From Streptacidiphilus pinicola (GTDB lineage Bacteria; Actinomycetota; Actinomycetes; Streptomycetales; Streptomycetaceae): a DNA stretch of 64,000 nt. Below are positions 24,777-32,736 of the stretch, one piece after another. How positions within the stretch are numbered: position 1 is the stretch's first letter; every line of letters begins with the position of its first letter. The notes beneath the pieces are model-generated. The model did no database searches. It was not told the DNA's origin and was given only the letters and a program-made list of their open reading frames with translations. The stretch lies in the NCBI RefSeq assembly GCF_003258295.1, contig NZ_QKYN01000037.1, forward strand, positions 124,001 to 188,000. The letters are read 5' to 3'. The translations under genes and the position numbers were made by a program.

Positions 24777-24857
24777 CCGACGGAAGATCTGGCCTCGTCA
24801 CGGGCCTTCCCGCATCCTCGTCCCATCAGCTTGGACGCTTACGAGGGGGAGTAGGCA

Positions 24858-27041
24858 GTGACCGACCATCTGACGCCCGAGGACGAGGGAGCCCAGCGGC
24901 CACCGGCGCCGCCCGCCGCACCGCCCGCCGCACCGCCCGGATTCGGCCCGCCGCCACTCATGACTCCCGGACCCGTGCCGCCGCCGCGGCAGCCCGTTCC
25001 GCCGTTCGGTCCGGCCATCGGACCCGCACTCGGTCCCGCCGCGGGACCGGCACCCGCGCGCCGGCCGCGCCGGACGTGGGTGGTCGCCGGTCTCACGGCC
25101 TTCCTGCTGGTCGTCGGCGGCGTCGGCTGGTGGGTGTGGCCCGGCGGCTCCGACCCGCGCGCGGACGGGCGGGCGGCCGCGCAGACCCTGGCCGCGTTGC
25201 CGGCCGTGCAGCTCTCCACCACCTTCGAGGGCACGGACGGGGCGGTGACACGGTCCCAGCTGACGGTCACGGCCGCCGGTCTGGCCACGGGCACCGTCCA
25301 CGGCCCGCTGGACTCGACGGCCGACCTGGCCTCGACCAGTAGCCGGACGCTGCTGCGCGGCGACGACTCCTACTGGGGCACGCACACCCCGAACGACGTC
25401 GGGTCCGCGGTCGGACACTGGGTCACGTCCACCCAGCCCGCCACCGATCTGGGTCTGGACGTCTCCCAGCTGACCCCGGCCGCGCTGGCCCGGCTGGTCA
25501 CCCGGGTCGTCAACGACCCGACCGCCACCCCGCAGGACGCCGGCACCGTCCACGGGCAGGCGGCCACGAGCTTCACGGCCGGCGGCTGGACCGTGCTGAT
25601 CAGCACCGGATCGCCGCACCAGGTGCTCGGGCTGGGCGGGAGCGTCGGCAGCGGCGGCTCCGCGGGCGTTCCGACGTCCCCGGGACCCTCGGCGTCGGAT
25701 TCCACCGGCACGCCCGGGGTCTCGTCCGCCGCGCTGCTGACGGCGGGCAGCGGTCCGGTCGCGGTGCCCGTCGACGACTCCAGCTACTCGCCCTACGTCT
25801 TCATCCAGCCACAGCCCGCCGCTCCCGCTCAGGCCGCCGCCGTGCCCTCAGCCGTCGCGACGGCCACCAGCTCGCCGAGCGGCAGCCCCACGGGTGGCGG
25901 TGACGGCCGGGTCACGCAGCCGCCGCCCGCCGCGTTCTCCGCGCAGCTGCCGCCCGAGCCCCTGTGCACCAGTCCCACCTGCAGCGCCGATATCCAGGTC
26001 ACCAACACCGGCGGTCGCGCGGCCCAGGCCACCGCGTTCGTCTCGGTCTCCCCCGGCCTGGCGCAGACGGCCCTCACGCTGGGGACGGTGCAGCCGGGCG
26101 CGACGGTCACCCGGCAGTTCAGCTACCCGAACCAGGCCCAGCCGGGAGGTCCGCAGGTCACCGTCTACGTGAAGGCGTGGCTCTTCTCCCCCAGCCAGGA
26201 CGGTCCCGATCCGGCGGCCGCCGAGCGACTGCAGAAGCGCCAACTCGACCCGTCGAAGGAGTTGCAGGTCACCTCCCTGGATCCGATCTACCAGCCCACG
26301 GCCGTGCGGATGCTGGACCTGCTCACCGACCAGGCGGGAGCCACCAACCAGCAGGCCCTGGAGGTGCTCGACATGGCCACCACCCGGGGATTCCTGCCCG
26401 AGCTGTCCGTGCTCTCGTCCTCCGACGGCCTGCAGAACCCCAAGGACCTCTACCGGCTCCTGAGCACCGACATCGGCCAGGAGACCCTGCCCTCCGGGCA
26501 GACCCCGGCGCCGACGCCCGGCGGCGTCGAGCAGATCGGCAACCGGCGGGTCCTGGAGCAGGTGACGCAGCTGTTCCTGACGGATCCGAAGGCGAAGATC
26601 TGGTACGACGGGGTCTACGAGCAGAATGGAGCGAAGGCGAAGACCGACATCATCTTCGAGGGCACTGTGGGCGGCCGGCCGGTGCAGCGCGCCTACCAGA
26701 TCAAGACCGTCACCTCCGACAGCATGCTGGGAAAGCGGCTGGGTGAGGCCGGCAAGCAGCTGAACGGCCTCGGCGGCGTCGAGGTCGCGACGGGCATCCC
26801 CGAGCAGGCCCCGCCCGGCTTCCAGCGAATCATCCAGATCTACCTGGAGCCGACCGTGGACCCGCGCATCTACACCGCCGACCAGGCGGGCCTGGAACGC
26901 CAGCTGTCCAAGCGCCTGCAGCAGGCGATGCGGAACCTGTGCGGCGCCGACGGCAAGCCGCTCGCCGACCTGCTCGTCGTCGTCAACGGCACCGGCGTCC
27001 ACGAGTGGACCGATCTGAAGGCCGTGGGAGTGCCGTGCTGA
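24858..27041 (+). CDS. Membrane-anchored protein with CARDB-like and nuclease-like domains
   Basis: This encodes 727 aa from a GTG start after GAGGGGGAGTAGGCA. Order: Pro-rich cytoplasmic tail (1-67), RRPRR stop-transfer then one TM (about 72-95), an extracytoplasmic domain, Ser/Thr/Pro linkers, a CARDB-type immunoglobulin-like module around 375-435 (DIQVTNTGGRAAQATAFV), and a C-terminal domain from about 560. The last reads KTDIIFEGTVGGR...YQIKTVTSD, a D-x(n)-QxK spacing seen in PD-(D/E)xK-type nucleases and contact-dependent toxin tips. The downstream gene overlaps by 7 nt and may be a partner or immunity protein. The nuclease idea is inference; the membrane topology is direct. Confidence 0.6.
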   Translation: MTDHLTPEDEGAQRPPAPPAAPPAAPPGFGPPPLMTPGPVPPPRQPVPPFGPAIGPALGPAAGPAPARRPRRTWVVAGLTAFLLVVGGVGWWVWPGGSDPRADGRAAAQTLAALPAVQLSTTFEGTDGAVTRSQLTVTAAGLATGTVHGPLDSTADLASTSSRTLLRGDDSYWGTHTPNDVGSAVGHWVTSTQPATDLGLDVSQLTPAALARLVTRVVNDPTATPQDAGTVHGQAATSFTAGGWTVLISTGSPHQVLGLGGSVGSGGSAGVPTSPGPSASDSTGTPGVSSAALLTAGSGPVAVPVDDSSYSPYVFIQPQPAAPAQAAAVPSAVATATSSPSGSPTGGGDGRVTQPPPAAFSAQLPPEPLCTSPTCSADIQVTNTGGRAAQATAFVSVSPGLAQTALTLGTVQPGATVTRQFSYPNQAQPGGPQVTVYVKAWLFSPSQDGPDPAAAERLQKRQLDPSKELQVTSLDPIYQPTAVRMLDLLTDQAGATNQQALEVLDMATTRGFLPELSVLSSSDGLQNPKDLYRLLSTDIGQETLPSGQTPAPTPGGVEQIGNRRVLEQVTQLFLTDPKAKIWYDGVYEQNGAKAKTDIIFEGTVGGRPVQRAYQIKTVTSDSMLGKRLGEAGKQLNGLGGVEVATGIPEQAPPGFQRIIQIYLEPTVDPRIYTADQAGLERQLSKRLQQAMRNLCGADGKPLADLLVVVNGTGVHEWTDLKAVGVPC

Positions 27042-28063
27042 ACCCCTGGTTCACCTACGAGAACGAGTCGCTGTGCTGGGCCCTGGAGTTCCCGGACGGG
27101 CACCCGGTGGACGCGCTGCGCGCGTGGCAGCGCCGGGTGCTGGAGTCCGGCGAGCGGCACCGGGTCTACCGGGTGCGCGCCGTCCGGGCGCTCGACTACC
27201 GCGCCGAGCGGGACGGCTTCCTCGCCGACTTCCTCGACGACCACCCCGACCGGCTGAAGCGGGCCCTGCCCTACCAGGAGCTGATCCCCGGCGTGGTCTT
27301 CAACGAGGGCCTGTGGCTGGACGTCTCCGCCGTCCTCGCGGTCGACCTGGCCGAGGGCCGGGTGGGCGAGGTCGAGGCGGAGACGATGTCGCCGCTCACC
27401 GCGCTGCCCTCGGTGTTCACCCACCGCTACGACACCACCGTCGTCCCGCTGGAGCTGCGCGGGCGTCAGCTCCTGGACGACGAGGGGCGGTCCGGCCCGT
27501 ACCGGTGCGAGGTCGTGCCCGGCGGCAACATCTGGTTCCCGTGGAACCCGGCGCCCTACGACCTGCTGGGCGCCGACGGGGACTTCCTGGACAACCGCCG
27601 CCTGGCCTCGCGGAACTCGGCCCGGCTCAACGCGTTCCTGCGGGAGGTCACCGCCGCGACGGCCGAGGCGGGCGGAGCCTGGCTCGGGGCGGTCGACGTC
27701 TCTCCTTCGGTGGCGTTCCAGGTCGACGACGACGGCGTGCTGCTGGACGCCGAGCACCGGCTCGACGTCGTCTGGGACGCGCCACCGGCGGCCGACCCGG
27801 CCGACGCCGTGGGCGCGGGCCTCGCCTGGTTCGCCGCGCATCCGCCGCCGGCGGGGCGTCAGGCGGTGATCCGGGTGGCGCTCACAGCGGACAGCCGCTG
27901 GCACGCCGCCACCACGGAGGCGCTGACGGCGGCCGTGGCCACCGCCGCGGGGCTGGCCGGCTACGCGTGGTCGGCGCCGGACGCCGTGGCGAAGGTGCAG
28001 ATCACCAATGACCGTGGCGAGCACCTGCTGGGCAGGCGCCGCCTCGCCGCGGCCCGCGGCTGA
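27035..28063 (+). CDS. Unknown soluble partner of the membrane-anchored protein
   Basis: This encodes 342 aa. The GTG start at 27035 lies inside the end of the upstream gene (7-nt overlap), which strongly couples their translation. There is no signal peptide or TM. It is acidic, with many aromatic residues and a repeated F/W-P-W-N-P style motif (IWFPWNPAPYDLLG). No known family was recognised. The overlap and position argue that it works with, or protects against, the protein encoded upstream. It could be an immunity protein, though its length is above the usual range. Confidence 0.6.
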   Translation: MLNPWFTYENESLCWALEFPDGHPVDALRAWQRRVLESGERHRVYRVRAVRALDYRAERDGFLADFLDDHPDRLKRALPYQELIPGVVFNEGLWLDVSAVLAVDLAEGRVGEVEAETMSPLTALPSVFTHRYDTTVVPLELRGRQLLDDEGRSGPYRCEVVPGGNIWFPWNPAPYDLLGADGDFLDNRRLASRNSARLNAFLREVTAATAEAGGAWLGAVDVSPSVAFQVDDDGVLLDAEHRLDVVWDAPPAADPADAVGAGLAWFAAHPPPAGRQAVIRVALTADSRWHAATTEALTAAVATAAGLAGYAWSAPDAVAKVQITNDRGEHLLGRRRLAAARG

Positions 28064-28068
28064 TCCGC

Positions 28069-28263
28069 TCAGCCGAGGATATCGACACGCCGCGCGGCTG
28101 ACGCCGGCTGCGCGGGTTCACCCGCCGGGGTCCGGGCCTCGGCTGCCGGGTGCGCCTGCCGCGCGGGCTGCCTGCGCGGCAGGCGCACCCGGCTCTCGAA
28201 GGCCAACCCGACCAGCAGCAGGAAGAGCGGGGTGAGCAGGACGGTGAGGACGACGGTCATCAT
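28069..28263 (-). CDS. Small single-pass membrane protein
   Basis: This encodes 64 aa. The ATG pair at 28263/28260 follows GGAG with 7-nt spacing. One TM (VVLTVLLTPLFLLLVGLAF) is followed by a basic Arg/Pro/Ala-rich tail, giving a cytoplasmic C-terminus. It is convergent with the gene ending at 28063 and lies downstream of the alcohol dehydrogenase. No function is recognised. The coding call rests on start context and hydrophobic pattern. Confidence 0.5.
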   Translation of the reverse strand: MMTVVLTVLLTPLFLLLVGLAFESRVRLPRRQPARQAHPAAEARTPAGEPAQPASAARRVDILG

Positions 28264-32220: not shown

Positions 32221-32736
32221 TCAGCACTCGAAGACCGACCAGCAGATCTCGTTGCGCAGGCGCTGGTCGTCCAGGACAAGCTCACGAATCGCGTCCGGGA
32301 GTTGTTCGCGCTGCCAGCGACACTCGATCCGTCCGGCGGTCTCCGCCTCGCTCGCGGGCACCGCCGCACGGACAGCCTTGATCGCGTAGGCCGCAGCACC
32401 CAGCTCGTGTGCGGCGACATGCGCCACCACCGCGGCTTGGCCGGCAGCGAACGCTGCGTGACGAGCCGCGCCGCTCAACACTCGGGCCGCAGCCATGGCA
32501 TGGCCACCCGCCGCGCGCGATTCAGACATCCTGATCTCGCCGCGAGCCCACGCGCGAATCTGCTCGATCGCCTCACGAGGCCGGAGGTCTGCGGGCTGCG
32601 CCGCCTCGAAGTGGTGCAGCACGTGCTCCGCACACGCAGCCGCCCACACAGCCAGGAGCCGATGATCGGCGTCTGTGAGGCTTCCGCCACGGCGGATGGT
32701 GATGAACCGAGGGTCGCGCTCCTTGGGCAAGATCAC
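32221..32736 (-). CDS. Imm5-like putative immunity protein
   Basis: This encodes 171 aa. It is alanine-rich and all helical, with the conserved N-terminus RDPRFITIRRGGSLTDADHR and later GQAAVVAHVAAHELGAAAYA, the pattern I associate with the Imm5-type immunity family of polymorphic toxin systems. Proteins of this type neutralise a cognate secreted toxin in the cytoplasm. No toxin gene is adjacent: upstream is a small membrane protein, downstream the divergent promoter region of pullulanase. It may be an orphan immunity gene guarding against neighbours' toxins. Confidence 0.65.
   Translation of the reverse strand: MILPKERDPRFITIRRGGSLTDADHRLLAVWAAACAEHVLHHFEAAQPADLRPREAIEQIRAWARGEIRMSESRAAGGHAMAAARVLSGAARHAAFAAGQAAVVAHVAAHELGAAAYAIKAVRAAVPASEAETAGRIECRWQREQLPDAIRELVLDDQRLRNEICWSVFEC

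Follow-up and report, generated by a model that had tools for sequence, protein, structure and literature searches.

Nuclease toxins and Imm-SUKH proteins are among the listed toxin–immunity pairings (Zhang et al. 2012, PMC3482391). Streptomyces exports alarmone synthetases that have no immunity genes and, although toxic in the cytoplasm, leave the producer unharmed (PMC12691689). Among the PD-(D/E)XK nucleases, the Mrr PD-QXK type has a cited D-to-Q spacing of 10–12 residues (PMC11037411). TerY-P modules are found with restriction-like systems, and modules related to them have antiphage activity (PMC11090510). Here, we analyzed two overlapping genes in a 64-kb window, which is the whole stretch of DNA under study. 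The first gene (gene 1) encodes a membrane protein that is likely, as predicted, a surface-displayed nuclease-like effector, and the second (gene 2) encodes a soluble orphan protein.

The two overlapping genes described in the initial annotation were confirmed (Table 1). Both are coding, with a strongly actinobacterial GC pattern by codon position (0.71/0.58/0.92 in gene 1 and 0.78/0.51/0.97 in gene 2), and the coding frame switches at their junction. Gene 1 starts with GTG, and of the possible gene 2 starts near the junction only the GTG at 27035 has a ribosome site. The overlap makes translational coupling likely. A hairpin, which the initial annotation did not contain, lies 71 nt after the end of gene 2 (-77.9 kcal/mol, z -6.69; 0 of 200 shuffles equally stable), suggesting that genes 1 and 2 are probably carried on one transcript ending there.

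Table 1 Features of the two-gene locus and of related loci.
Feature	Position	Strand	Basis
Shine-Dalgarno-like GAGGGGGAG, gene 1	24843..24851	+	sequence
Gene 1, 727-aa type II membrane protein	24858..27041	+	ORF, codon-position GC, homologues
Pro-rich cytoplasmic tail, residues 1-72	24858..25073	+	sequence
Single TM helix, residues 73-94, RRPRR just before	25074..25139	+	sequence
LprG/LppX/LolA-like domain, about residues 97-338	25146..25871	+	AlphaFold2, VIA-align, Foldseek
CARDB Ig-like domain, about residues 353-448	25914..26201	+	VIA-align, weak Pfam match
Helical linker, about residues 445-536	26190..26465	+	AlphaFold2 secondary structure
PD-(D/E)XK-like domain, residues 557-727	26526..27038	+	AlphaFold2 secondary structure, motif conservation
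Shine-Dalgarno-like GGGAG, gene 2, within gene 1	27026..27030	+	sequence
7-nt overlap between genes 1 and 2	27035..27041	+	sequence
Gene 2, 342-aa soluble orphan, candidate immunity protein	27035..28063	+	codon-position GC
Long GC-rich hairpin, 35-nt arms, 3' of gene 2	28134..28204	.	folding vs shuffles
VWA, PP2C and kinase-like genes, TerY-P-like	L031:7385-8991, L056:1972-5590, L061:3011-5104		

Both flanks of the locus encode ordinary metabolism. One has genes for thiolase, TetR, SDR, enoyl-CoA hydratase and two acyl-CoA dehydrogenases, and the other for an alcohol dehydrogenase and a pullulanase-type enzyme. A search for a flanking repeat that would mark mobile-element borders gave nothing convincing. 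The window also encodes, at 32221–32736 on the reverse strand, a 171-aa protein with a match to the putative immunity family Imm5_like (Pfam E 7e-34). Its gene adjoins the pullulanase-type gene, and no toxin was recognised beside it.

The Pro-rich cytoplasmic tail and the single transmembrane (TM) helix claimed for the gene 1 protein could be read directly from its residues, and the relatives likewise have Pro-rich tails. The positively charged RRPRR ahead of the helix places the C-terminus outside the cell (positive inside). No lipobox Cys anchor was found in the gene 1 sequence, which has the TM helix instead. In an AlphaFold2 model of residues 97–727, built from a nine-sequence alignment (mean pLDDT 67.6), the TM helix and the Ig-like domain are separated by an LprG-like domain that was absent from the initial annotation. 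This domain, which includes a low-confidence insert, aligned with LprG 3mh9 (VIA-align, Z 13.1, rmsd 4.1, 172 residues aligned) and 3mh8 (Foldseek, E 1.3e-4), and at this Z score it has the LolA-like fold of the LprG/LppX family. The spacer, previously recognised only as Ig-like, was identified as a CARDB fold (VIA-align to 3idu, Z 9.4, rmsd 2.6, 90 residues aligned; weak Pfam CARDB match, E 0.048), in which Cys 370 and Cys 375 are invariant. Together with Cys 695 and Cys 727, which are conserved in the C-terminal domain, this Cys pair fits with an extracellular location.

The LprG-like domain of the scaffold is shared by lipoproteins of one other actinobacterial family (L065, L066, L067 and L068), in which it is apparently followed by an Ig-like domain, and each of their genes lies downstream of an ammonium-transporter-like gene. 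These lipoproteins are a possible source of the gene 1 stalk.

A nuclease-like C-terminus with a D-x(n)-QxK pattern had been claimed for gene 1. The pattern was found as D-x(16)-Q-I-K (D597, Q614 and K616), and its spacing of 16, larger than the cited 10–12, counts against a nuclease effector. Over most of its length the domain was modelled with a pLDDT of about 80–90, and its predicted elements (helix 557–575, strands within 580–618, helix 621–635, strand 656–663) follow the order helix-strand-strand-strand-helix-strand. The model puts E567 within the first helix, D597 at a core strand's edge and Q614-I-K616 in the strand that follows, so that these residues occupy the elements where a PD-(D/E)XK fold has its E, D and (D/E/Q)xK. 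By its predicted secondary-structure order and conserved E-D-QxK residues, the domain fits a PD-(D/E)XK nuclease, in line with the original claim. Neither sequence nor fold searches linked it to a known nuclease; the fold lists were filled by the two N-terminal domains, and PDB and Pfam profile searches returned nothing credible. The viral fold library gave no coherent match, and a control search with the Cap4 nuclease matched nowhere and was uninformative. An IL-18 receptor match to this domain (E 0.015) was rejected as chance.

Judged by sequence comparison, the gene 1 scaffold is an unnamed and sparse actinobacterial family. Searches against Pfam, NCBIfam, PHROG and PADLOC gave it no match above the cut-offs, and the family scans returned no signature of RHS or filamentous repeats, of HINT or of WXG. 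Single-sequence genome searches missed the relatives, which were recovered by tblastn on plasmids, a profile search and a pattern scan of species genomes. The profile search of 395 Streptomycetaceae genomes yielded 11 further copies in 10 of the 394 other genomes, as well as four partial Ig-domain matches. Family members are present in Streptomyces, Kitasatospora and Amycolatopsis, and several copies sit on linear plasmids or close to the end of a chromosome or contig. No distant full-length member was found in 364 class-level genomes, where the matches corresponded to the LprG-like part of other proteins. The closest relative, from Kitasatospora (L033/L055), shows 43% identity in the core. 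Actinosynnema and Actinokineospora contain fragments of the QxK-domain family, apparently decayed copies (L062:6001-6423 and L063:6001-6138).

The relatives share a constant N-terminal part and have varied C-termini, which is the organization of polymorphic toxins, and they fall into three groups. Group 1 proteins (L002, L003/L059, L025, L026, L029/L060 and L061) carry an Endonuclea_NS_2 domain after a linker, with E values of 1.6e-10 to 2.3e-8 in five of them; the NS_2 domain of L061 is a different one (E 1.8e-11). The next gene is SUKH-like in five of the six NS_2 loci. Two of these SUKH-like genes were scanned and matched Pfam SUKH_6 under the cut-off (E 2.7e-4 and 2.2e-3), and the remaining three were assigned by eye as their evident homologues. 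In the sixth locus, L061, the open frame after the family gene had no Pfam match. Members of group 2 (L004–L006, L027, L028, L030 and L035, which is frameshifted) carry a different C-terminal domain, in which a FDQLYRL...LIVEAK stretch resembles the REase-type toxin motifs of PMC3482391. In L035 (4856-6364), the frame breaks inside the C-terminal part of this EAK type and the remainder lies in another frame. Group 3 comprises the short forms (the window, L031, L032/L056, L033/L055, L034/L058 and L057), which end at, or no more than 10 residues from, the last Cys of the QxK domain. They occur in Kitasatospora, Streptomyces, Amycolatopsis and the genus of the window, and the five distinct short forms other than that of the window have no recognisable immunity-like gene directly downstream. 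Both an EAK-type and a short copy occur in one Streptomyces genome (S. atratus, matching L058), as L027 (G617:C24) and L034 (G617:C68), respectively. Given the recognised nuclease domains of the relatives, most with adjacent SUKH-like genes, the earlier proposal of a surface-displayed effector fits the family.

The state of the QxK motif differed between the short and NS_2 forms. The six short forms retain D (6/6), Q (6/6), K (5/6) and E (5/6), and the six NS_2 forms retain D (6/6), with Q in 0/6, K in 2/6 and E in 1/6. The motif is kept in 5/6 short forms and eroded in 6/6 NS_2 forms. All NS_2 forms grouped in one clade (100/99) nested among the short forms, with L031, a short form with QVQ, as its neighbour; the window sequence formed a long branch. 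This nesting suggests that the QxK form is probably older in that branch. The simplest reading of these sequences is that, in this branch, the QxK domain began as the active tip and its active site was lost around the addition of NS_2, a pattern that is only suggestive since it represents a single evolutionary event.

The gene 2 protein has no TM helix, and family and profile scans returned no match, in agreement with the initial annotation of a partner of no known family. No SUKH model (SUKH/SMI1-KNR4) matched with an E value of 1 or below. Homologues of gene 2 were sought with peptide patterns in 84,980 species genomes and in viral contigs, by tblastn against plasmids and phages, and in all six frames of 394 genomes at class level and 395 at family level; these searches returned only gene 2 itself or chance-size matches. 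One of these, a 25% match over 132 aa to a 660-aa frame beside ABC-transporter genes (L008), was judged chance because its per-genome E of 8.6e-4 was obtained across 394 genomes. AlphaFold2, given the single gene 2 sequence, yielded no usable model (mean pLDDT 38).

The initial annotation proposed gene 2 as the cognate partner of gene 1 and named the co-occurrence of the two genes elsewhere as a check set beforehand. The outcome of this check went against the partnership. Gene 2 accompanied gene 1 in no relative examined: tblastn found no gene 2 relative beside 18 other gene 1 family loci, and the closest gene 1 relative, L033/L055, has no gene 2-like neighbour. The cognate partnership is unsupported so far. 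The overlap favours a link between the two genes, and the absence of co-occurrence weakens it. From its position, gene 2 may have an immunity role; two readings fit it, an immunity protein that evolves fast or was acquired recently, and an unrelated insertion.

We tentatively favour, as a possible explanation of the locus, that gene 1 encodes a displayed nuclease effector of a polymorphic-toxin-like family and gene 2 its lineage-specific immunity protein. The Pro-rich tail would remain in the cytoplasm and one helix would anchor the protein, while the LprG/LolA-like domain, the CARDB domain and the helical linker would hold the PD-(D/E)XK-like domain outside the cell. On contact with competing bacteria, the nuclease domain might then be released or delivered and cleave their nucleic acid. 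Gene 2 would be translated off the same message via the overlap, and its cytosolic product would protect the producer. The overlap, the ribosome site of gene 2 and the hairpin after it count for an effector–immunity pair. Against the pair count the five other short forms, with neither a recognisable immunity gene nor gene 2, and against an effector counts that no delivery machinery for it was identified. It is doubtful that the fullest version of this explanation holds, namely an undescribed actinobacterial displayed toxin whose original Mrr-like QxK warhead on an LprG-CARDB stalk became a spacer in the NS_2 clade and is guarded in the window by an immunity protein of a new family.

The lack of a recognisable immunity gene directly downstream in the five other short forms, and the restriction of gene 2 to one lineage, would also be expected of an exported nuclease that has no immunity partner and degrades environmental or phage nucleic acid for nutrition, defence or competition, with gene 2 being an unrelated or regulatory gene that entered the operon by chance. 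Such a nuclease would be harmless to its producer because it is exported, and the exported Streptomyces alarmone synthetases provide a precedent (PMC12691689). We consider this rather unlikely, as most NS_2 relatives have adjoining SUKH-like genes and the 7-nt overlap implies that production of gene 2 is coupled. The position of the QxK domain upstream of another nuclease or nuclease-like domain in the NS_2 and EAK relatives, and its degenerate motif in the NS_2 forms, could instead indicate a dead spacer or pre-toxin domain on a scaffold that lost, or never had, a warhead. This is unlikely given that short forms of several genera end near the same Cys, mostly with the whole motif, and that the NS_2 clade is surrounded by short forms in the tree.

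The neighbours of a few relatives raise another explanation, in which a TerY-P-like triad drives a membrane stress or defence signalling module with gene 1 as its output. In L031 and L056 (=L032), the family gene has VWA, PP2C and kinase-like genes as neighbours, and in L056 all four genes are adjacent and co-directional. L061 has a damaged copy of the triad, in which the kinase gene is apparently internally deleted. The PP2C genes matched Pfam (E 3e-24 and 4e-23), but the VWA and kinase matches were below the Pfam cut-offs. The association of TerY-P modules with restriction-like systems, and of related modules with antiphage activity (PMC11090510), would suit such an output. This explanation is improbable for the window, as tblastn found no triad gene in its 64 kb or in the other family loci examined.

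If the displayed-effector explanation is true, an unannotated TM-anchored toxin scaffold would be added to actinobacterial competition, and the family would offer a readable case of warhead replacement, with the older nuclease motif decaying in the members to which a new nuclease was appended. The 342-aa orphan would then be a candidate for a new immunity family.

The locus can be compared with several known systems. The membrane-proximal domain of gene 1 has the fold of the mycobacterial LprG/LppX lipoproteins (Z 13), but unlike them the gene 1 protein is TM-anchored, has no lipobox and is fused to CARDB and nuclease-like domains. Unlike the Mrr/BisI-type PD-(D/E)XK nucleases with D-QxK, its C-terminal domain is predicted to be extracellular, with a conserved Cys pair, a D-to-Q spacing of 16 and no sequence-level family match. 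The exported alarmone synthetases of Streptomyces (PMC12691689) resemble gene 1 in being exported enzymes whose adjacent immunity gene can be missing; they differ in being another enzyme and in using signal-peptide secretion rather than a membrane anchor. The VWA-PP2C-kinase genes of L031, L056/L032 and L061 recall TerY-P triads (PMC11090510), with weak VWA and kinase matches. The initial annotation could match the layout to no described system. This holds for the scaffold, for which none of the Pfam, NCBIfam, PHROG and PADLOC families scored above the cut-offs, but not for its logic, which matches that of polymorphic toxins. Unlike polymorphic toxins, the scaffold (Pro-rich tail, TM, LprG-like, CARDB, helical and REase-like parts) has no Pfam or NCBIfam model and the short forms of the family have no recognisable immunity gene; like them, the gene 1 family combines a constant N-terminal presentation part with a varied C-terminal nuclease, and a SUKH-like immunity gene follows most NS_2 members.
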